A DNA stretch of 64,000 nt, taken from positions 1 through 64,000 of IMG/VR virus record IMGVR_UViG_3300022908_000001; one strand, written 5' to 3'. The notes beneath the pieces were generated by a model. It ran no database searches. It was not told the origin of the DNA and worked only from the letters and a program-made list of their open reading frames with translations. How positions within the stretch are numbered: position 1 is the first letter of the stretch; every line of letters begins with the position of its first letter. A program made the translations under genes and the position numbers. Shown here piece by piece: positions 2,251-55,292 of this stretch. This stretch comes from a virus.

Positions 2251-2745
2251 TCACTTGCTATTCGATAAAGATAATGATTTTTTCTTTTCCCGTTGCCTTT
2301 TCCATTTTGCTTGCATTTTATCTATATTTCTATAATACCACTCCCGTTGATAAGCTAATTCCAATTCGTGGCAAGACTCACACCTGCACCCAAGCCTATA
2401 TGCATTGCGAGATGGATGGATATACTGGCCTATTCGACCCTTGTTTTGAGCATCTGAATGATTATCCTTGTGACTTCCCTTGAACAAGTGCAACGGGGAC
2501 ACGCATTTAGGATTGTCGCAAGTGTGGCATACCAGTTCCATTTTACTATTTAATTCGCCAATAAATAATACATAGCTTAATCTATGCGCGTACCAATTTT
2601 CTGTTTTCCCATTGCGAATAAATGATATTTGCCCGTAACCTTGTTTATTAGACGCCCCTGTCCATTCCAAGCAACCATTTTCACTATTATATTTTACAAA
2701 TCTTGTAAATCTTTCAAGAGGTGAAACTCTTTTTATACCACCCAT
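2251..2745 (-). CDS. HNH homing endonuclease (HNH_3 type), copy 1
   Basis: The 164-residue protein contains the HNH_3 core: AHRLSYVLFIGEL, then CHTCDNPKCVSPLHLFKG and KDNHSDAQNKGR. The H/N/H residues and zinc cysteines are all present. The C-terminal part has HPSRNAYRLGCRCESCHE, a cysteine knuckle it shares with the second copy at 17666-18256. It sits between two late genes with no spacing at its 3' end (its stop abuts the next ATG), as a free-standing homing nuclease does. A structured RNA (2758-2860) precedes it by 12 bases. Such enzymes cut homologous phage DNA so that the element is copied into it. Confidence 0.85.
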   Translation of the reverse strand: MGGIKRVSPLERFTRFVKYNSENGCLEWTGASNKQGYGQISFIRNGKTENWYAHRLSYVLFIGELNSKMELVCHTCDNPKCVSPLHLFKGSHKDNHSDAQNKGRIGQYIHPSRNAYRLGCRCESCHELELAYQREWYYRNIDKMQAKWKRQREKKKSLSLSNSK

Positions 2746-2757
2746 AAACTTAAAAAT

Positions 2758-2860
2758 CCTGTTCCGGGTTCAGCCGATTGCGCCAGCCTCACCCAAAACA
2801 GGATTGAAATATCTTTAACTACGGAGCGCAATTCCGATTTGTTAATACGAATATACGAAA
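2758..2860 (-). ncRNA. Structured RNA 5' of HNH gene, copy 1
   Basis: On the minus strand this leader has a small hairpin CGGA/TCCG, a box containing AAAGATATTTCAAT, then a closing stem CCTGTT/AACAGG (2797-2802 with 2758-2763). Inside are GGGT/ACCC and CTGAACCCGG. The same order with different stem sequences occurs before the other HNH gene, which suggests paired-base conservation. It ends exactly 12 bases before the ATG. It could regulate translation of the nuclease or be part of the mobile unit. I do not recognise it as a known RNA class. Confidence 0.5.
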
Positions 2861-7000: not shown

Positions 7001-8770
7001 CAACCCTGCTACCGCCAAAGGCTGTCCTTTTTGAGTAACATTCGGATAAACTTTATTGTATATCAGCCGTGCGAGAAGCGTATTTCCCACGTTATTCAGA
7101 TGCTGCCCATCTGATAGTAATGAATTTGAGCCATCGTATTTAACTAAACCGTAAAGATTTATATCAATACATCCCAATACGGCTGCTATGGAGTCAACTG
7201 CGTGACTGAACTGTGCCTGCCGTGATAAGTACTGTGGCAATGTCAGTGAACCCGGCGGAATTGTTGAAGGATTAAAGGCGACATTGGTTAAAATAATTTG
7301 GTTGTATGCCCATCCTTTTGAGTTTGCATTATTAAGAACGGTCACCCAGTCCAACGCGAATTGATGCTCAAAATATGAACTTGTCGCTGTGTTGATGTCG
7401 TTTTGGCCCAAGCAGAAAAGTAAATACCTGTCGCTACCGCCCTTTGTTGGTATTCGTGACAGGTTGTTTACCCATGCTGTGCCACCCCCTGCACCTAAAT
7501 CCGTTCCCGACATGCCTATATTGACCTCGGTTGATCCGAATAAAGCGGCTGTCTGTGTGGAGAAAGCCAGTGAACTTGGATTTGCGCCCGGTGCAGGATT
7601 AACAAAGCTATCTCCGGCAAATACCATGTTGCCGCCAATGGCTACGGTTGGTTGTACGCCGCCTAAGTATAAAGAGTCGGCTTGTAACTTGTGTCCGGCG
7701 TTTGAAACATACCTATCCCCCTGCAACGGTGCGGAAGTATTATAAATATTAACACTGCTCACCCCAGCTATTTTTTTAACCGTTCCTAAATGGCTCACCA
7801 AGATACTATCTGTCCCGCTTCCCGTAGGCAAATTAGGAAAGACCACACCAGCATTAACCAATAATCCCTTATTTGTGTGCACGTTCCCAACGACCAGTGA
7901 ATAGTCATTATTCAGGTTATCTGTCGTTACCTTGTTGCCAAAGTAATGGGTGCCGTACCAGCCTTTATTTCCCGGTATACTGTATTGCGTGGTGTTGGTT
8001 GTAACAAAATTGGTTATAGGCGGGTTGGGTATAGTCGTTACGGATGTAGGCGTGATGAGCACCGAGCCGACATCTACAGTTCCGGCAGGTATGGCAGGCT
8101 GAACCGGTGCAAGACTAAGCGTGCCCGATACTACGTGCAGCGTATTGGATGCGTCTGCATAAACCTCGTCATACCGTGAAAGCGTGGCGTCCTGCGCGTC
8201 AATACCCAGCGTGGTAGTCCCCGTGGTGTGGTATAGGACATCATGTATGCGCCAAACACCTGCTGTAATGAATACAGATGGTTCTGTTGCGGACATATTC
8301 AGACCGGAAATTACTGTGTTTTGTAGGTATTGGGAGGTATCCCGCCACATGTGCCCGGTATCATCCCGCACGACTACTTGCCCGTGCCCTATATTGCCTA
8401 TGTTAACTGTAAGGGGTATCGATTGAGTCCCGAAGCCAGTTAGCGTGGTCGTGTCAACGTATAGGGAGTCTGCGCCTCCACCAGAACCCGCTTTTCTCCA
8501 TTGCCCCCGTAGATAGAAATAAAATGCACTGTCAACCGTTCCGATACCAATAGCGCCGTCTTGGGGAGTGCTGTTATTGAAGGTCGGGGTAGTGAATATC
8601 GGAATAATTTGGGTAAGCGTAGTTTGCGTATTTGCGTATTTGAACGTCTGCCTGTTATAGGTAGGCGAACTTGGAGACGAAGCAACAGGATTCTGTTGAG
8701 TTACGATGGCATTCTGCGCACTCACCCAAAACGGGAGCAATAAGAGTAGGTATAGTAGGGTTTTTCTCAT
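4097..8770 (-). CDS. Large fibre/tailspike-like protein with signal peptide and SGNH hydrolase domain
   Basis: This 1557-residue protein starts with MRKTLLYLLLLLPFWVSAQN, a clear Sec signal peptide, which is unusual for a tail fibre. Repetitive S/T/G-rich beta sequence follows. Residues about 383-565 form an SGNH/GDSL esterase domain: GDSF at 386-389 (catalytic Ser388), GQND at 455-458, and D554-G-Q-H557. The C-terminal half has GSGF-, NGTIL-, and GTG-rich repeats like fibre shafts and ends in a small trimer-like tail (SAVTLMPDGTQFLRE). It overlaps the upstream gene by four bases. It probably binds and deacetylates or de-esterifies surface polysaccharide. The long opposite-strand open frames here are shadows of its biased composition. 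Confidence 0.75.
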   Translation of the reverse strand: MRKTLLYLLLLLPFWVSAQNAIVTQQNPVASSPSSPTYNRQTFKYANTQTTLTQIIPIFTTPTFNNSTPQDGAIGIGTVDSAFYFYLRGQWRKAGSGGGADSLYVDTTTLTGFGTQSIPLTVNIGNIGHGQVVVRDDTGHMWRDTSQYLQNTVISGLNMSATEPSVFITAGVWRIHDVLYHTTGTTTLGIDAQDATLSRYDEVYADASNTLHVVSGTLSLAPVQPAIPAGTVDVGSVLITPTSVTTIPNPPITNFVTTNTTQYSIPGNKGWYGTHYFGNKVTTDNLNNDYSLVVGNVHTNKGLLVNAGVVFPNLPTGSGTDSILVSHLGTVKKIAGVSSVNIYNTSAPLQGDRYVSNAGHKLQADSLYLGGVQPTVAIGGNMVFAGDSFVNPAPGANPSSLAFSTQTAALFGSTEVNIGMSGTDLGAGGGTAWVNNLSRIPTKGGSDRYLLFCLGQNDINTATSSYFEHQFALDWVTVLNNANSKGWAYNQIILTNVAFNPSTIPPGSLTLPQYLSRQAQFSHAVDSIAAVLGCIDINLYGLVKYDGSNSLLSDGQHLNNVGNTLLARLIYNKVYPNVTQKGQPLAVAGLTDLTTLRLPKLPNIPLGATVNPMLMGITAGDTVGRIAQLPKDIGTAGNFYLNGTLYQPGWTTPPGYTVQSNDFSLSEGARITGIYTPNTGFGIYNYVQPMDISGGMTFFMNGGAGAAMTFMNNSHRNMALDAAGNIVSDGSVKITGLGNKFYFDDGSGYQSGIVPLTSASEQQIFNQKSRGSTSVYEANGTDGAQVKMFGINYDGQALLQNDADFVTPDTYATVPSGKLTINSLTKGFIPPRMTTAQVVAMEKISSINVVNQGSGYTTASISLSGSTGSGFTATPVIVGGQIRSWTVTNAGTGYLTPQTATVTGDGTGSTALVQNYLIQGTLVFNTDSAKYQYYDGTVLRVIGNSGSGGGGTVAAVTGTTNRITSTGGTTPQIDISATFEGLLGKVANPLSQFASTTSAQLASTISDETGSGSAVFATSPTFVTPALGTPSSGVATNLTGLPLTTGVTGVLPIANGGTGSGTQPFVDLTTTQASIGGAKTFTTSVNANISGIGSTLVVGSNFAGSDVATVGAQKNSPITLNTGSAWLTTPVSASTIGMGFGLTPIQGTTTPGANYILYQSIAGATPTATGFQVSNLGALLSSTVTSNGTILGGNTSSTTLGFGTVATSNFVSYSSNIGAGSSNALYTFAGAGTVMYRNAFGGNQSSQALGASNSYAGNIFASSAVTTASSGTSAMLSNVAIKAPAITVTGGSTVTNAASLYIDAAPTGATANYALYSLAGTNGFGGNVVPLTTNAVSNGTSALTWQNTFSNILSSSSSSALTIKTPGATAISLQTNGQTNATLFSTGNLLVQSGGTQSDSTAYKFSVIGRARISQFVAASSNDSLMAFNPTTHAVRMTKLVAGTGVGLTYASGNITVAASTLLNPGITISAAGTLTLAASNDYEFNGTTTTWTLPAPSGSATGRAYQITIKNAGSGNITLNSASGNQIYDTSAVASITITPGSAVTLMPDGTQFLRE

Positions 8771-9351
8771 GATTCTGTTGCGTAACTATACACGGTAATT
8801 AACTGCCCATCTACCACACTTGGTAAATTCCCACCCGGCAGAAGTACAAAACCTCCCGTAGGTAATAGCGAATAATCTGAACCGACTTCTAGCCCTGTTA
8901 GCATTGGGCTTGTGAGCGCCATAAAGGGATTAAAACCTTTCCATAGCGGATTATCGTACTCAATGCGATTAACACCGCCGTCAGGCGAACCGGTAGTAAC
9001 GAAATCCCCCCAAGTTAGCACTACAGGCTGCGGCACACTCGGCGTATTAATAATCTCAATTGTATTACCCGGAACCTGTGCGTTGGGATCAAATGCTATA
9101 CCGCCAAACCAAGTCGAGCCAATGTCCAATAACTGATTGTAAATGTCAACACTCGCGGCGGATGAGTAGTCAGCCATACCCAATGACCATAATCCTGATT
9201 TTATCTTTAAATCCTGACAGGCAGCCAAATTCCAATCAGGCGAACATCCCAACGCTTCTTGGTTACGCAACATCAATACAAGTGCTGCGTTAGCCCTGTC
9301 AGCCGTAAAAACAGCCGTAGTATATTGAGCCTGTGTTATTGACACTGGCAA
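8767..9351 (-). CDS. Virion-associated hypothetical protein (fibre region)
   Basis: This 194-residue soluble protein lies between the fibre gene and a 167-residue companion, overlapping both (by 4 and 16 bases). The N-terminal half is helical (TADRANAALVLMLRNQ). The C-terminal half is beta-rich and includes VLTWGDFVTTGSPDGG. I recognise no family. The tight coupling to the fibre gene suggests a fibre adaptor or tail component. Confidence 0.5.
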   Translation of the reverse strand: MPVSITQAQYTTAVFTADRANAALVLMLRNQEALGCSPDWNLAACQDLKIKSGLWSLGMADYSSAASVDIYNQLLDIGSTWFGGIAFDPNAQVPGNTIEIINTPSVPQPVVLTWGDFVTTGSPDGGVNRIEYDNPLWKGFNPFMALTSPMLTGLEVGSDYSLLPTGGFVLLPGGNLPSVVDGQLITVYSYATES

Positions 9352-9839
9352 TCCTCCGAATTGATAAGTGAATTAGCGTCGATGATAGCGTTTTGAGCTT
9401 CTGATGGCACACCGAATAAGGTAGCTGTTACCGCTTCATTATATGCCAAATTAGCCTTTGTTGCAGCATTGCATAGTTTTGAACAGTTGCAACACCGTAG
9501 CTTACGCGAAACTTCTCTTGCTTGGTTGTTATAGAAGTTGGCAGCGAGAAAATTATCCGTACCTGTTTTAATGGTTGAGCCGGGTATGGTGAATGCTAAT
9601 GAGTTGTTTAGGTATGAATCTGCTGTAAGTGTAATAGATGCCGTGAGTAAGCCCGGTGTGAATGTTACTGTAGCTATGGGATTGTTAAGGCCATCTGTTA
9701 TCGTGTCGAGTCGGGAAACTATGTTGCCGAGTGTTACGCCGTCTGTATTGGTCGAGTAATTCGAGATGTCCGTTATGATGACAGTTTCGCCAGACGCCGA
9801 CTGTGCAAGTGATACTGCTGGTTGGAAAGGTACTGCCAT
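9336..9839 (-). CDS. Virion-associated hypothetical protein with cysteine pair motif
   Basis: The 167-residue protein has a beta-rich first half and a helical second half holding a KLRCCNCSKLC cluster and an end of DCQCQ. The cysteines could bind a metal, but no known family fits. It overlaps the next gene by 16 bases and lies 25 bases after the huge internal protein gene. It is probably a tail or fibre-attachment component on context alone. Confidence 0.45.
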   Translation of the reverse strand: MAVPFQPAVSLAQSASGETVIITDISNYSTNTDGVTLGNIVSRLDTITDGLNNPIATVTFTPGLLTASITLTADSYLNNSLAFTIPGSTIKTGTDNFLAANFYNNQAREVSRKLRCCNCSKLCNAATKANLAYNEAVTATLFGVPSEAQNAIIDANSLINSEDCQCQ

Positions 9840-12800: not shown

Positions 12801-14382
12801 ACTTTCCCTCATCGCCTTCAACTCCTTTTGAATAAGTAGTACGGTTTCCCGTAACCAGGTCTTTTAATTTATCATTGGCCTGGTCTATCTTATCCTGTAT
12901 CAACTGCTCCTGCTGTCCGGGTATTTCAGATACAGATGGGTCAAGTTTACTTCGCTGTTCCTGTAAGTCCTTTAATTGACCCTCCAATTCATTTCGACCC
13001 ATAATAATGGATACACCTTTTGTAACTTTTTTAGCAGGCAAGGTGGGCGGTAACTTGGCTACCGTATTGGATAGTAAATCAACTCCGTCCTGTGCTTGCT
13101 GTATCTGCTCATCAGTCCAGCCCTTTTCTTTACCGTGTTGTACAACGTCTTGTTTTAGTGACGCAACAGCTTCGGGGCTATTATCGGTCTGTAATTTCTC
13201 AATAGTTGGATTAGGATTGTGCCCAAGCATGCCTAACATTTCACCAGCGCCCGTTATCCCGCCAAATACTGCGGCAGGCGAAGTTATTATATTGCCCAAT
13301 GCTGCTTTCAAATCACCATGTGGGTTCTGATCTAAACCGAACGGTTCCGATACCCCTTGTACAAAGTCTGCACCTGTGGTATCTTTAAACGGCTCTTCGC
13401 CACTCACAGCATTGGCTAATTTCTTAGTTCCGAATGTGGCAGCATTAGCGGCAGATAACTCCGTGCCAACTTTAGCATATTGGGCTATAGCAGATAACCC
13501 AGTTTGTCCAACTTTTTCAGCAAGCGTGTTGGCTTTGGACAGGAAAGCATCTGCAATATCCTGCGAGGTTGCCTGTATGCCCTTTTCACCTAATTCCTGT
13601 ATGGCTTCGGCTGTCAAGCCTGATACGATATTGCTTTTAGCGGCGCTCCCGAATGAGTTAAATACCTTACCCATGCTGCCACGACCTAACGCTGTCCCAA
13701 TAACACCTGAACCGAGTATGAAGAGGTCGTCGGAATGGTTATCAAACTTAACGCCATTGTCCTTCATCTTTTGAACGGCGGTTGCAGCTTGACCGGCTGT
13801 TTGCAATCCAAATGAAGCGCCGCCTGTTTCCCCCGCTGTTATTAAGGACGGAGCCATAAAAGCGAATTGGTTGATAGCATTGTGAACCTTACTATCGCCT
13901 TGTTGCAGTGTGCTCGGGTCTAAACCGAATGTTTCCTTTCGGCTATCGGCAACCTGATCAAGTACCCGCTTTGTTTCCGCATCATCAACCAGACCTATTT
14001 TATTTGCGCCATAATACAATGGGGCGATAGTCATATTGGCAATACCTTTATTCAAGCTGCCTGCTATGGATTTTAACTCATAAGCGGCTTTTTGGCTAAA
14101 TGTTGGCGCTACGTATTGTTTGATTTGATCGGGTTGTTGATCTGGTGCAACTAAGTTTCCACCTTGCGCTTGCCTGTATGCAGCCAAGTTGCCCTCAAGT
14201 TGGTTCGACAGCGCCTGTGATTTCGCATCTTGTGCGGCGTGGTATTGCGGAGTAAATGGCGTAACAGGTTCAGTACTTGACGGGGAAAGGGGGTCGGGTA
14301 GGCTACCTAAACCAGTTAATGAACCTGTGCCACCAGTAGAGTGGGGTATATTTTTTTTTAGGAGGCGGCGGGGGTAACCCAT
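9865..14382 (-). CDS. Very large internal virion / DNA-ejection-type protein
   Basis: The open frame gives 1505 residues. The first 380 are A/G-rich with weakly hydrophobic helices (for example ANMTIAPLYYGANKIG). A low-complexity acidic S/T/E/P/Q stretch is next, then a long charged coiled coil. The C-terminal 450 residues are helical and conserved-looking (LLFSPRFMAARIHTLYLW). This layout resembles T7 gp16-type or cargo proteins ejected with DNA. I see no DxDxD RNA polymerase motif. The start is uncertain: the likely true N-terminus begins at 14443 in another frame and joins through a run of nine A. Confidence 0.65.
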   Translation of the reverse strand: MGYPRRLLKKNIPHSTGGTGSLTGLGSLPDPLSPSSTEPVTPFTPQYHAAQDAKSQALSNQLEGNLAAYRQAQGGNLVAPDQQPDQIKQYVAPTFSQKAAYELKSIAGSLNKGIANMTIAPLYYGANKIGLVDDAETKRVLDQVADSRKETFGLDPSTLQQGDSKVHNAINQFAFMAPSLITAGETGGASFGLQTAGQAATAVQKMKDNGVKFDNHSDDLFILGSGVIGTALGRGSMGKVFNSFGSAAKSNIVSGLTAEAIQELGEKGIQATSQDIADAFLSKANTLAEKVGQTGLSAIAQYAKVGTELSAANAATFGTKKLANAVSGEEPFKDTTGADFVQGVSEPFGLDQNPHGDLKAALGNIITSPAAVFGGITGAGEMLGMLGHNPNPTIEKLQTDNSPEAVASLKQDVVQHGKEKGWTDEQIQQAQDGVDLLSNTVAKLPPTLPAKKVTKGVSIIMGRNELEGQLKDLQEQRSKLDPSVSEIPGQQEQLIQDKIDQANDKLKDLVTGNRTTYSKGVEGDEGKYFKTVNGVKEEITPERYELEDMERKAKSQVKTDEIADIVGLTPESKDSSIETSETTSENKSPVDTAQEGVSPLVADAGVSTNAEPITQEGEQQNAIQEPSTTGVPIQPTPGDSSEVPIGDTEGSQVAGESQPQPENSGGRDAQQAEEVVPEPPKSEEPVSSKKTSIKEQADKVDVKLDDNKGGTRSKDIVEAEADKALKDGYDIHELVRKIKDDKHVATDTENAILAKHIGTRTDEIVDLNKRIEEGAATMSAEKLDELTGKRDAALKDFQDVANANDATRSNAGRALKSGQFQLHNNYSLESLIRNERRLNDGKPLTETQLADVSNRHSELEKANAAYEKKLQESQEEIARLKAEKAVSKPRTRSTAKTHEDFVKERKAISQEFSKKLAEMRKNGQLNDVFGASAQFLRAAAPYVAKMVTSLAHEKITELSEVVKRIREELDLKELSTKEMYDLVSGKYNEPVTKDAIQEQIRKLKNEAKLLSQIDDAENGLRKLPEPKRRVADEKIEALRTRLRELDKENGLYDEKNKEASKRQLQKSIKELQDKIAKGDYEKPQPKEPDESPEAMELRRKRDALRHDYDLEQARRELDKRSKFEKAKDVTLNVASLPRAIKATLDFSAVLRQGLIPTVAHPGEAVKALKTMFGQTFSEKKYQDWFSDIKRSPQYELMKASGLYISEKNNPELLAREEQFTSNLLEKIPVLGKIHQGAERAYTGYLNAIRTGVFISEAAKLQERGYTFKNNPEAFRDLATVVNVLSGRGNIPDALGGKQPAVLSNLLFSPRFMAARIHTLYLWGDPRLSRSAKVLAAKDIGKTLATAGTILTMASLAGLKVSHDPRGSDFLKIKDGDTRYDILGGLTQYVVYLSQMLSGQKVAAGTTQPKSLTSGKFGAPTRLDNTISFVRGKLNPIVGSATNLMAGKDVVGQPYHLWPNVPEEFVPLPATDVYEAYKLGGITNALKVLVPSQFGVGVNTFTNKKK

Positions 14383-14443
14383 CGTCTCCTGAACTAACCT
14401 TTTTAGGGGGAGGTGGTAATAAATCGTCGTCTACTGTTCCCAT
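14303..14443 (-). other. Out-of-frame N-terminus of the large internal protein, joined at a nine-A run
   Basis: An ATG at 14443 directly follows the TAG of the upstream gene and opens a 46-codon frame. Its sequence has a repeated acid-proline-lysine pattern (DDDLLPPPPKK, then DDGLPPPPPKK). If the nine-A run (plus-strand T run 14351-14359) were eight, reading would continue as KKNIPHSTGG into the 1505-residue frame. Either the base count is wrong, the gene is broken, or the polymerase slips here. Confidence 0.55.
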
Positions 14444-16018
14444 CTATTTAATATTATATCCCTGAGCTTTATAATAATCAACCAGCTCTTGTTGCGTATA
14501 TCCTTCGAATCCCGGCTTACCTACTTTTGATTGTATTTGTTGTAACGTTGTCGTTTTCCCATGTTGCCCGGTTCCGGCATTATTCTGAACCGTAGGCAAA
14601 TGCTTCTTACCACCAACTGTTCTTAATGCAGATATGTCTACCTTCTCGCCGGTTAATTGATTCACCAACTCATTTAGTTCAACATCTGCGTTAGGGTCTT
14701 GTTTATTTATCGTTACCACGTGCGATGGCTGAACATCAGCATAGTCCCCAGCGCCATTATTGGCTTTCGGATCGAACTTTCGGCGTGCCGGAATAGTGAA
14801 TTTTATATTATCTCCCTCTACCTTAATACCCAGTTCTGTTTTTGGATCATAAGACGGATCAGCCTTTAGCCGGTTTGTAAGCGTCTCCCCACTCCCCGGA
14901 ACTCCTGTCAACATATCACTAACTAACTTTTGACGGTATATCGGAGTGGTGTCTTTAACTCCTTTTTCTTTAGCCAACTCCATGCGTTGACGAGCCAAAT
15001 CTAAATTAGCTTCACTTATAGCTAACCTGTCTTCTCCATAGTCAGGCACTTTTTTTGTTTCTACATTGGCGTCGAGCCTGCTTCTAAAATCGCCCAATAC
15101 CTTACCATAGCCCGCATTTTGCTTGGTGACTACATCAACTAATTTATCCTTTGCATGCGGGTCGGCTGGGTCAATACCGGCAGCTTGTAGCGTAGCAGTA
15201 TAATGCGGTTGCTGTGCATTCTGTAATATCTGGTCAGCTATAGCATTAACACGTGGTGCATCAGTAGGATATATCGTTCCGCCATGACCGTTTGGTATAC
15301 CACCAATATCACCAACATGGGGGTCGATTCCATATCCTTGAAGCAATGGTGAAAACTCCGGTTGGCTTAATATTGCCTGCCCTTGTACAACATGGTTGTG
15401 TGAATTTGGTTCCGTTATGGTGTATCCGCCTGCGCTTCTTACATTTGCCGTAGCGTGTCCCAACTTCACCGCATCATTCAAGTCCAAATTCCGTTCTTCC
15501 AATGGCGGTGGCGGAGTGTATAATGCACTCACGGGATCGCTGTGATATTTTTGCAACCAATCAATATTGGCCTGTTTGCTCTCAGGTGTATAGTTTTTAC
15601 TCTTATCAGCTATAGCCGTAGCTACTGCAACTGCCCGCTTATTAGCTTGGTCGGTAGACTTCGCAACCGTATTAAGCTGATTTGTTTGACGGATGAAGTC
15701 AGGATTTGTAAAAGGGTCTTGCCCTGTAGAGGCATGATACTGCGCTGCGCTGCTCAATAAGTCATCGAATTTAGGTTGTAGCCATTTGGTGTACTCATTG
15801 GCAATCTCGGGTGTTTTAAACTGATACAGGTGATTTGCATATGCTTCATTAGCTTTCTGTTGCTGTTGCTGTAATAACGCCGCCTGCGCACGCCTGTCGG
15901 ACTCTCTTTCATTAGCTAACTGCATGAAGTATCCCGTAGTCCTGCTTTGTGGCAGAACATAGGCTAATCCTTGCCCTTGTTGCGACTGATCGCCTTCAAA
16001 TCCTGATAGTTCATCCAT
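14444..16018 (-). CDS. Internal virion / cargo-like protein
   Basis: The 524-residue soluble protein is rich in Q, N, A and D with a glutamine run (LLQQQQQK near residue 50) and long helices. It is coded between a small A/G-rich protein and the giant internal protein and is separated from both by 0-2 bases, which suggests coordinated amounts. By position it matches the second of the three ejected proteins of podoviruses (T7 gp14/15/16-like sets) or the cargo proteins of crAss-like phages. No motif proves this. Confidence 0.5.
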   Translation of the reverse strand: MDELSGFEGDQSQQGQGLAYVLPQSRTTGYFMQLANERESDRRAQAALLQQQQQKANEAYANHLYQFKTPEIANEYTKWLQPKFDDLLSSAAQYHASTGQDPFTNPDFIRQTNQLNTVAKSTDQANKRAVAVATAIADKSKNYTPESKQANIDWLQKYHSDPVSALYTPPPPLEERNLDLNDAVKLGHATANVRSAGGYTITEPNSHNHVVQGQAILSQPEFSPLLQGYGIDPHVGDIGGIPNGHGGTIYPTDAPRVNAIADQILQNAQQPHYTATLQAAGIDPADPHAKDKLVDVVTKQNAGYGKVLGDFRSRLDANVETKKVPDYGEDRLAISEANLDLARQRMELAKEKGVKDTTPIYRQKLVSDMLTGVPGSGETLTNRLKADPSYDPKTELGIKVEGDNIKFTIPARRKFDPKANNGAGDYADVQPSHVVTINKQDPNADVELNELVNQLTGEKVDISALRTVGGKKHLPTVQNNAGTGQHGKTTTLQQIQSKVGKPGFEGYTQQELVDYYKAQGYNIK

Positions 16019-17626: not shown

Positions 17627-17665
17627 AATTTAAAATTATATAATTACCATACAATAATAATCAAT

Positions 17666-18256
17666 TTATTGCAACCATTTCCATTTTCTTCTTTTTGCTA
17701 AGTCATCTATATGGCGCCTTTGTAAATTAGGGAATGCCTCACAAATTTGTTTTATCTTACTACCCGAATCATACATTCGTCTAATTTCCAAAACCTCATA
17801 CTCTTTAACGGTTCTATTTTTCTGCTCGGATATAGGCTTTTTAACAAATCCAGCATTGTATCTTGCGTCAAAACGCGCTTCGGTAGCAAGCCTTGTACAA
17901 TCTTGGCACCTACACCCATAACTATATGCGGTTTTACTTGGATGGGTAACTACCGGCATCCTTCCTTTGAGTTGAGCATCGTTCATGTTATCTTTCTGCG
18001 TACCCAAAAATAAGTGAAACGGATTTACGCAACTCGGATTGTCGCATTTATGGCAAATTTTCATACCTTCCGGCACTTCTCCTATGTAATGCATATAAGA
18101 ATACCTATGCGCAAAATACCCCCTTTCCCTTGTTTTAAATGAACCGTAGCCTTTTTTGTTTTTGCTTGCCTGCCATTCCCAACAACCGTTTTCTGGAGTG
18201 TATTTAACGAAACTAATAAACCTTTCAATATCAGATAATTTACTTCTCGGTGGCAT
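17666..18256 (-). CDS. HNH homing endonuclease (HNH_3 type), copy 2
   Basis: The 196-residue paralogue of the protein at 2251-2745 has the same core (AHRYSYMHYIGEVPEG, CHKCDNPSCVNPFHLFLG, KDNMNDAQLKGR) and the same cysteine knuckle (HPSKTAYSYGCRCQDC). It differs by an extra C-terminal segment (about residues 147-196) that looks like a small DNA-binding helix-turn-helix (VLEIRRMYDSGSKIKQICEA). It is inserted between the two virion genes at 17171 and 18367. The RNA at 18269-18364 precedes its ATG by 12 bases. It is intact and likely active as a free-standing mobile nuclease. Confidence 0.87.
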   Translation of the reverse strand: MPPRSKLSDIERFISFVKYTPENGCWEWQASKNKKGYGSFKTRERGYFAHRYSYMHYIGEVPEGMKICHKCDNPSCVNPFHLFLGTQKDNMNDAQLKGRMPVVTHPSKTAYSYGCRCQDCTRLATEARFDARYNAGFVKKPISEQKNRTVKEYEVLEIRRMYDSGSKIKQICEAFPNLQRRHIDDLAKRRKWKWLQ

Positions 18257-18268
18257 AATACTAAAAAA

Positions 18269-18364
18269 GCCGATGAGCCGGGTTCAGTCTGCCAACATCC
18301 CCCGAATCAACGGCTATTAAATATCTTACTAACCGTGGCAGCGGTTATTTATCAATACAAATAT
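18269..18364 (-). ncRNA. Structured RNA 5' of HNH gene, copy 2
   Basis: In the transcript it reads TTTGTATTGATAAATA, a hairpin ACCG/CGGT, a box TAGTAAGATATTTAAT, a closing stem GCCG/CGGC (18311-18314 with 18269-18272), an inner GGG/CCC pair and CTGAACCCGG. All elements match copy 1 in order and spacing, while the stems have changed on both sides. The distance to the ATG is 12 bases in both. An unknown RNA class or translational control leader is likely. Confidence 0.5.
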
Positions 18365-18366
18365 AA

Positions 18367-26611: not shown

Positions 26612-27133
26612 TTATGTTGTTTTTAATCTGATTGCAGGTCTCCTATTTTGAGCCTGTTCTTTAGGTGTCGCCCATTTACAATTATCCGGGCAGTAATTAC
26701 CATTGTTATCGATTCTTTCAATACTAAACTTTCTATTACCATCTGGTCTGCTTCCTACGTCTCTAAGGAAATTAAAAAAATCTTCCCTCCAAGAATCGCA
26801 AACGGATATCCCCCTTCCACCATACCTATGATATCCATCATAATTCTATTTGTGGCATCTCCTTATCATATCCCACCAGACATGATATTCCGGGTATTTG
26901 GTACGACCGTCCTTTTCTATTACCTTATAGAACCTTGCTCTAACCTGACAACCGCATGATGGTTTTTCAAATTTTATAAACCTTTCGGGTCTATAAACGG
27001 TTTGTTTTCCGCAATCGCAGGTGCAGTACAACATCGTGCATATTTGCGTTTTACCATTCCTACCTTTCCCAAATCCGGTTACGGTTAAAAGCCCTCTTTT
27101 TTCTCCAATTAAATGACTGTAATCTTTTGCCAT
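26612..27133 (-). pseudogene. AP2/HNH homing endonuclease interrupted by one amber codon
   Basis: Reading from ATG 27133, the first 95 residues carry a zinc ribbon (TCDCG ... SCGC) of the kind found before AP2 domains and end ...WWDMIRRCHK. A TAG at 26846-26848 is then followed, in the same frame, by [13 protein letters not shown], an [17 protein letters not shown] stretch and [10 protein letters not shown] to a TAA at 26612. The downstream part is a textbook AP2-HNH nuclease end, so one base change stops a 173-codon gene. It lies between the capsid gene and the 372-residue gene. TAG serves as a normal stop elsewhere in this genome, so recoding is unlikely. Confidence 0.8.
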
Positions 27134-54845: not shown

Positions 54846-55178
54846 TCAATCCAATTGATACCACATAACACAATCAATACCTTGTTTCTTTAATGATTTA
54901 AAAGCGGACTCCATCACGGCGCTCCTTAAATCTGCCTGCCCACCGGTTTCTATATGAAGAAACCTGTATCCAGAAAAGTACCCTGACAACCTTTCGCTTA
55001 TGCCGACACCACACTTCTTAGAAAGCTCGTCAATGTCGCCTTTTCTCCACCCTTTGAGAGATATACAAACAGTATCTAAGTTGCAACTCCCGCGATCAAC
55101 CGTTGACTTTACTGATTCTGATTCTTTTTTAGCTATAATTATAGCTTCTGCGACTCTTTCAATTTCTCTCTTTTCCAT
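54846..55178 (-). CDS. Hypothetical protein
   Basis: The ATG at 55178 (MEKREIERVAEAIIIAKKES) is taken; the frame opens upstream to 55199. The 110-residue protein is helix-rich and has two cysteines (RGSCNLDTVCISLKGW), with a FLHIETGGQADLRSAVMESA stretch. No family is recognised. Confidence 0.5.
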   Translation of the reverse strand: MEKREIERVAEAIIIAKKESESVKSTVDRGSCNLDTVCISLKGWRKGDIDELSKKCGVGISERLSGYFSGYRFLHIETGGQADLRSAVMESAFKSLKKQGIDCVMWYQLD

Positions 55179-55292
55179 AAAAACAACAAACCCCATCAAA
55201 TTCCAGCGGTCAGACTTTCATTCAACAGGGCGTTTTTAATTCCTTTTAATAACATTCTGACCAATGTTTTTGTTATTGTAAATATACGAATT

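Follow-up and report, generated by a model that had tools for sequence, protein, structure and literature searches.

The two HNH nuclease genes that we followed up in a phage genome are preceded by copies of one structured RNA leader, which on the evidence of its covarying helices is a real and conserved fold, and of which 57 distinct members were collected, the majority from other phage contigs. Its most likely role is that of a gene-control switch in phages of Bacteroidota, rather than of a guide RNA for the nucleases. The reading that we favour, and hold to be probable, is a terminator-coupled 5' leader (an attenuator) that is used by phage replication genes and has been borrowed by homing endonucleases. 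The DNA analysed, here called the window, comprises 64,000 nucleotides (positions 1 to 64,000 of IMG/VR record IMGVR_UViG_3300022908_000001) and comes from a virus record of 73,487 bases, and the presence of a muzzle-protein domain marks the source virus as crAss-like.

Both leaders are on the minus strand, leader 1 (2746-2860) directly 5' of HNH gene 1 and leader 2 (18257-18366) directly 5' of HNH gene 2, and each of them starts at the stop codon of its upstream gene. They have a common order of elements: TAnnTTTG, the P1 hairpin, an A-rich box, the P2 stem with GGG/CCC and TGAACC, a T-run and the ATG. As read from the sequence, copy 1 consists of a promoter-like -7 box TATATTCG of the TAnnTTTG type (2848-2855), the P1 hairpin CGGA-ATTGCGC-TCCG (2822-2836), the A-rich linker box AAGATATTT (2807-2815), the P2/P3 hairpin AATCCTGTT..GGG..TGAACCC..AACAGGATT with its U-run (2755-2805, dG about -31 kcal/mol), and a U-run and spacer ATTTTTAAGTTT of 12 nt from P2 to the ATG (2746-2757); its L1 loop (2826-2832) would kiss the complementary L3 loop GCGCAAT (2777-2783) in a pseudoknot. 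Copy 2 has the promoter-like -7 box TATATTTG (18358-18365), which abuts the stop codon of the muzzle gene, the P1 hairpin TAACCG-CTGCCA-CGGTTA (18330-18347), the linker box AAGATATTT (18319-18327), the P2/P3 hairpin GCCG..GGG..TGAACCC..CGGC (18269-18314) with the L3 loop TGGCAG (18289-18294), the complement of its L1 CTGCCA, and the 12-nt U-run and spacer TTTTTTAGTATT up to the ATG (18257-18268). The folding z-scores of the two leaders are -4.1 and -2.0, and both thus beat their shuffles.

An earlier note on this DNA had listed a small hairpin, the AAGATATTT box, a closing stem, GGG/CCC and CTGAACCCGG. All of these are present in both copies, the ATG of both HNH genes does lie exactly 12 nt past the closing stem, and the closing stems are unlike in sequence yet paired (CCTGTT/AACAGG in copy 1, GCCG/CGGC in copy 2). 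What had been overlooked is that the P1 loop is complementary to the P3 loop in both copies (ATTGCGC/GCGCAAT and CTGCCA/TGGCAG), that a TATATT(T/C)G box stands just 5' of P1 and a T-run 3' of P2, and that the window holds a divergent third leader copy. TATATT(T/C)G is of the -7 type of Bacteroidota promoters. The third leader (55176-55292, minus strand) was found by a covariance model over the whole record (E=1.5e-4) and consists of TATATTTA, P1 AACATT-GGTCAG-AATGTT, L3 CTGACC (55208-55213), a U-rich tail and an ATG; it keeps the kissing loops GGTCAG/CTGACC and is without the AARATATTT box and TGAACC. The ORF of about 110 aa after it (54846-55178, minus strand) had no nuclease resemblance that we noted.

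HNH gene 1 (2251-2745, minus strand) encodes an HNH_3 nuclease of 164 aa with a C-terminal HPS..AY..GCRC..C zinc knuckle; phrog endonuclease/HNH families are matched, phrog_1872 at E=3.6e-24, and HNH_3 itself at E=8.5e-5, just below the Pfam cut-off. HNH gene 2 (17666-18256, minus strand) encodes an HNH_3 nuclease of 196 aa (E=2.7e-11) with a zinc knuckle and a C-terminal HTH-like stretch. HNH_3, zf-His_Me_endon and a weak HTH_7 in gene 2 are the only domains matched in the two proteins, which carry the homing-type HNH catalytic domain of free-standing homing endonucleases (gene 1 below the cut-off), and as the earlier note had it, the domain search finds no RuvC in either. A PDB search with HNH 2 gave no meaningful match, and a DNA similarity search with copy 1 against phage records gave none. 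A third HNH-like gene of the window (26639-27133, minus strand) is 41% identical to the 177-aa HNH of G413, a close relative of the virus, and has one in-frame TAG; it looks like a broken gene, since other large genes here use TAG as a normal stop, and in place of a kissing leader it has just an ordinary terminator and a promoter-like box.

The strict pattern AAGATATTT..CTGAACCCG gave only chance matches in viral contigs, none of them with the fold, and was rejected. The first true members came from a pattern with promoter and box and from a pattern with GGGGA, and an independent relative with the same order of elements and the loops ATGCCG/CGGCAT (L028) came from a protein search. Ten clean members were then obtained by a descriptor scan of contigs, reversed sequence giving zero matches. 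Run over complete records, a covariance model built from these ten revealed that the same phages have additional copies, the third copy of the window included. When the model was applied after a box-free pattern, it returned 64 hits with E no higher than 1, with 100 loci searched of the 103 stretches found, and after merging, 59 aligned hits, 57 of them distinct, were used for analysis. No false hit scored above 28.5 in the Markov and reversed controls, the best real ones having 32-37, and candidates scoring lower than these were accepted by inspection only. The early patterns forced the AARATATTT box, and its apparent invariance is therefore an artefact; the box-free pattern found members with a degenerate box, and in members not selected for it the box is still enriched (present in 12 of 43, where shuffled linkers give about 1). 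No convincing member was found in Bacteroidota chromosomes, neither by a GTDB pattern scan that required the box nor by model and pattern in 395 genomes, one of these searches being strictly filtered.

Two further arrangements were seen on the way. Three loci (L097 at 2487-2607, L166 and L168) have what looks like a variant of the kissing-hairpin leader, GTTCAGG/CCTGAAC without GGGGA/TGAACC, before a PD-(D/E)XK-like nuclease, and this group was left out of the proven members. At L192 (record G011, about 8410-8935) units spanning about 126 nt are repeated in tandem, each with the promoter TATATTTG, a small RNA and a T-run, and between neighbouring units the 5' arm of one seems complementary to the 3' arm of the other; this is probably something else than the kissing leader, and perhaps a different sort of small-RNA array.

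The consensus of the family begins with TAnnTTTG, mostly 9-19 nt from L1, followed by P1 of 4-6 bp and an A-rich linker that often reads AARAYATTT; the 3' part has a P2 stem that measures 8-12 bp and ends in GGG/CCC, a GGA/UGAA internal loop, P3 of 2-5 bp, L3, the 3' strand of P2, a U-run and the AUG, and the fold extends about 90-100 nt after the promoter-like box. In an unfitted MAFFT alignment of the ten clean members, both partners have changed in 12 of the 19 pairs, and the covariation score of this alignment was reached by none of 500 shuffles and falls sharply when the strands are slid against each other. All 19 pairs have double changes in the model-fitted alignment, which leans to the model. 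Covarying helices, the mark of a structured cis-regulatory leader, are thus present. The earlier note had proposed to collect such leaders and build a covariance model, and had conceded that the similarity of the two copies might be only that of a recent duplication; with 57 distinct relatives at hand, the latter is ruled out because P1 and P2 covary.

The contact between the loops is an independent test, since the kissing pair is absent from the model. L1 and L3 are exactly complementary over 6-9 bp in 52 of 56 members; of the four exceptions, two (L491:2385 and the third copy of the window) are due to the choice of a wrong TGAA anchor. The mean complementarity is 6.59, compared to 4.51 (sd 0.13, maximum 5.09) in 10,000 permutations of partners, z about 15, a value that is not a strict probability because the members are related, their genes and loop sequences still being diverse. 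The pairing of L1 with L3 is accordingly a pseudoknot contact that covariation supports, and each of the 53 members checked has short P3 pairs (2 or more) on either side of L3.

The box TAnnTT[TC][GA] is at the expected place in 44 of 51 members. P2 has a median dG of -21 kcal/mol, and since a T-run follows it, it has the shape, and we speak of shape only, of an intrinsic terminator; a T-run of at least 5 T in 8 is present in 14 of 15 members that were not selected for one. A simple terminator scan, which allowed loops of 3-8 only, did not list P2. The gene upstream is on the same strand as the leader in 48 of 53 cases, which would suit the explanation that P2 is merely the terminator of that gene and that P1 and the kissing are accidental. 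We find this very unlikely, as both the kissing and P1 covary and the promoter box stands between the upstream stop and P1. A divergent upstream gene is moreover near two leaders, one HNH leader of G413 and the leader of L220, and P2 can therefore not be the terminator of the upstream gene there.

An ORF of at least 40 aa starts within 45 nt of the end of the element in 54 of 59 hits, a count that is slightly biased because the model includes the ATG. Having nearly every member directly before an ORF speaks against the idea that the short terminated transcript is a small RNA acting in trans and that the gene behind is expressed by leakage. The unit from promoter to terminator has a length of about 95 nt, the L1 sequences CGGCCA, CTGCCA and TTGCGC recur, and no ORF is directly behind the remaining 5 of 59 hits, L416 among them, but we still regard a trans-acting RNA as improbable.

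The genes behind the leader are of several kinds. Among 47 non-redundant downstream proteins, the nuclease-type domains are HNH_3 (11), HNH (3), NUMOD3 (4), GIY-YIG (2), NUMOD4 (2) and AP2 (2), and the others include DUF6291 (5), SNF2/Helicase_C (4), Lin1244_N (3), DUF3987 (2), a DnaG zinc ribbon (1) and DUF1376 (1); an ATPase-like protein is also found. The first ten members alone precede genes for HNH_3, HNH_1, HNH with AP2, NUMOD4 with HNH and AP2, GIY-YIG with NUMOD3, and a DUF6291 protein.

Leaders were also found in cultured phages, as weak model matches (E 0.00015-0.13), the main ones of which show the kissing pair and the terminator by direct inspection. In Flavobacterium phage hattifnatt9-1 the leader is found 5' of two genes, those of the gp034 helicase (leader at 9352-9472) and the gp041 NUMOD4 endonuclease, and 14328-14452 is another candidate; in F. 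columnare phage FCV-1 it precedes two or three genes, in Croceibacter phage P2559S gp48, and in Bacteroides phage B40-8 a Rha regulator. The deposited start codon of the gp034 helicase (MN812207.1, 9441; L541 659) lies inside the leader, and the ATG past the U-run, a few dozen nt downstream of the annotated one, is likely the start.

Proteins of G413 are mostly 61-85% identical to those of the window over the structural genes. From the muzzle gene to the next gene there are about 20 nt in G413 and about 740 nt in the window, where leader and HNH 2 (17627-18366, minus strand) fill a site that is empty in G413. Occupied and empty sites in relatives, as expected of a homing endonuclease, are thus seen for copy 2; for copy 1 there was no clean empty site among the records compared. 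Since leader and HNH 2 are missing together in G413, they seem to move as one cassette. G413 carries its own HNH genes with leaders at other sites, and a second case of presence and absence, sought in snusmum phages, was not obtained, the same endonuclease being present there. Near-identical P1/L1 sequences recur before nucleases of different families, CGGAATTGCGCTCCG in L220, L420 and leader 1 of the window (2746-2860), and GCGGCCAC in L158, L209, L524, L241, L521 and L416, which suggests that the leader has been swapped between unrelated homing endonucleases.

The earlier note had seen in RNA and HNH gene a possible mobile unit, and as far as copy 2 is concerned its mobility agrees with the joint presence or absence of leader and gene. 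That the two are one functional system, albeit a different one from IscB, is not supported, as the same RNA precedes GIY-YIG, HNH_1, HNH-AP2, DUF6291, helicase and primase genes. An RNA-guided or RNA-assisted nuclease unit like HEARO/IscB, in which the leader RNA binds the HNH protein, could draw on this joint presence or absence and on the roughly 40% of downstream genes that are HNH or GIY-YIG nucleases; we give it hardly any credence because the leader also stands before several unrelated kinds of genes (helicases, a primase, DUF6291, the ATPase-like protein and others), and both HNH proteins are without RuvC. Neither a HEARO model match, nor a split RuvC with HNH, nor an RNA specific to nucleases was found. 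The window gave 0 matches to the 4227 Rfam families at gathering score, HEARO included, and when Rfam was scanned permissively with both leaders and with ten member loci, all matches were weak and unrelated, again with none to HEARO; HEARO/IscB, a group I intron remnant and the known riboswitch families were rejected as having no Rfam support.

There are likenesses to several known systems. HEARO, the omega RNA of IscB, is also a structured RNA with a pseudoknot directly 5' of an HNH nuclease gene, but our leader is found before GIY-YIG and non-nuclease genes as well and ends in a terminator-like hairpin, and its HNH protein has no RuvC. The put RNA of HK022 and the nut of lambda are two-hairpin phage RNAs just behind promoters and in several copies per phage; put excludes a terminator, unlike the leader, and is not known to have kissing loops or a GGA/UGAA internal loop. 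Homing endonuclease genes of the T4 type are free-standing between phage genes, with their own promoter and 5' structure, whereas the leader is one conserved family common to different endonuclease families and replication genes. Attenuators and riboswitches have the same succession of promoter, conserved fold with a loop-loop contact, terminator-like hairpin with U-run, and gene; the leader differs from the known ones in having no Rfam match and in its clients, phage replication genes and homing endonucleases. The ANTAR dual-hairpin antiterminators (PMC3369931) likewise have two hairpins near a terminator, but in the leader one loop pairs with the other and the two covary in sequence. A literature search among open-licence papers gave none on such a leader. 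A structured 5' leader with a terminator is an already known kind, while what appears to be new is this family of RNAs, the kissing architecture that it has, and its joint use by replication genes and homing endonucleases.

From the structure and distribution shown above we infer the regulatory mechanism. Host polymerase would start at the TAnnTTTG box, P2 would act as an intrinsic terminator, and the kissing interaction together with a signal, be it a phage or host factor or a ligand, would set how often termination is used, so that the downstream gene would be made only on read-through or be held at a fixed low level. The leader would be used in this way by replication and early genes, and free-standing HNH and GIY-YIG homing endonucleases would carry it with them as a portable cassette for expression, one that functions at any place between phage genes where they land. 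No obvious alternative antiterminator pairing was found in the leader. The main rival, and for the earlier note the simpler explanation, is translational control: the leader could instead act on translation or mRNA stability, with the kissing fold 8-12 nt before the AUG setting ribosome access, possibly via a phage RNA-binding protein. The distance from stem to AUG is rather constant, and the U-rich tract before the AUG could serve translation in Bacteroidota as an S1-type binding site, the genes of that phylum seldom using Shine-Dalgarno pairing. The start codon and its surroundings are however outside the fold, the distance to the ORF is longer in several members, and the stem with its U-run is more terminator-like than translation needs. 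We therefore think translational control rather unlikely; judged by sequence features, transcription attenuation would fit better because hairpin and U-run are conserved.

A more tentative extension of the attenuator is that the leader defines a phage-wide regulon, in which one trans-acting factor or RNA polymerase would simultaneously abolish termination in a large number of early and replication units while the endonucleases hitchhike. Such a phage or host factor, or polymerase, would recognise the kissing geometry and the GGA/UGAA loop, leaving the sequence of L1 and L3 free to vary, and the homing endonucleases would carry the leader as a portable promoter-attenuator.

The leader adds to the phages of Bacteroidota an RNA family that Rfam lacks, with members in crAss-like, Flavobacterium, Croceibacter and Bacteroides phages, and the cultured carriers hattifnatt9-1, FCV-1, P2559S and B40-8 make it open to direct experiment. 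It points to control at the RNA level of replication genes in the phages of a phylum that is dominant in gut and aquatic settings, and it suggests how endonucleases of unrelated families may stay expressed and yet restrained at any insertion site, by means of a shared leader.
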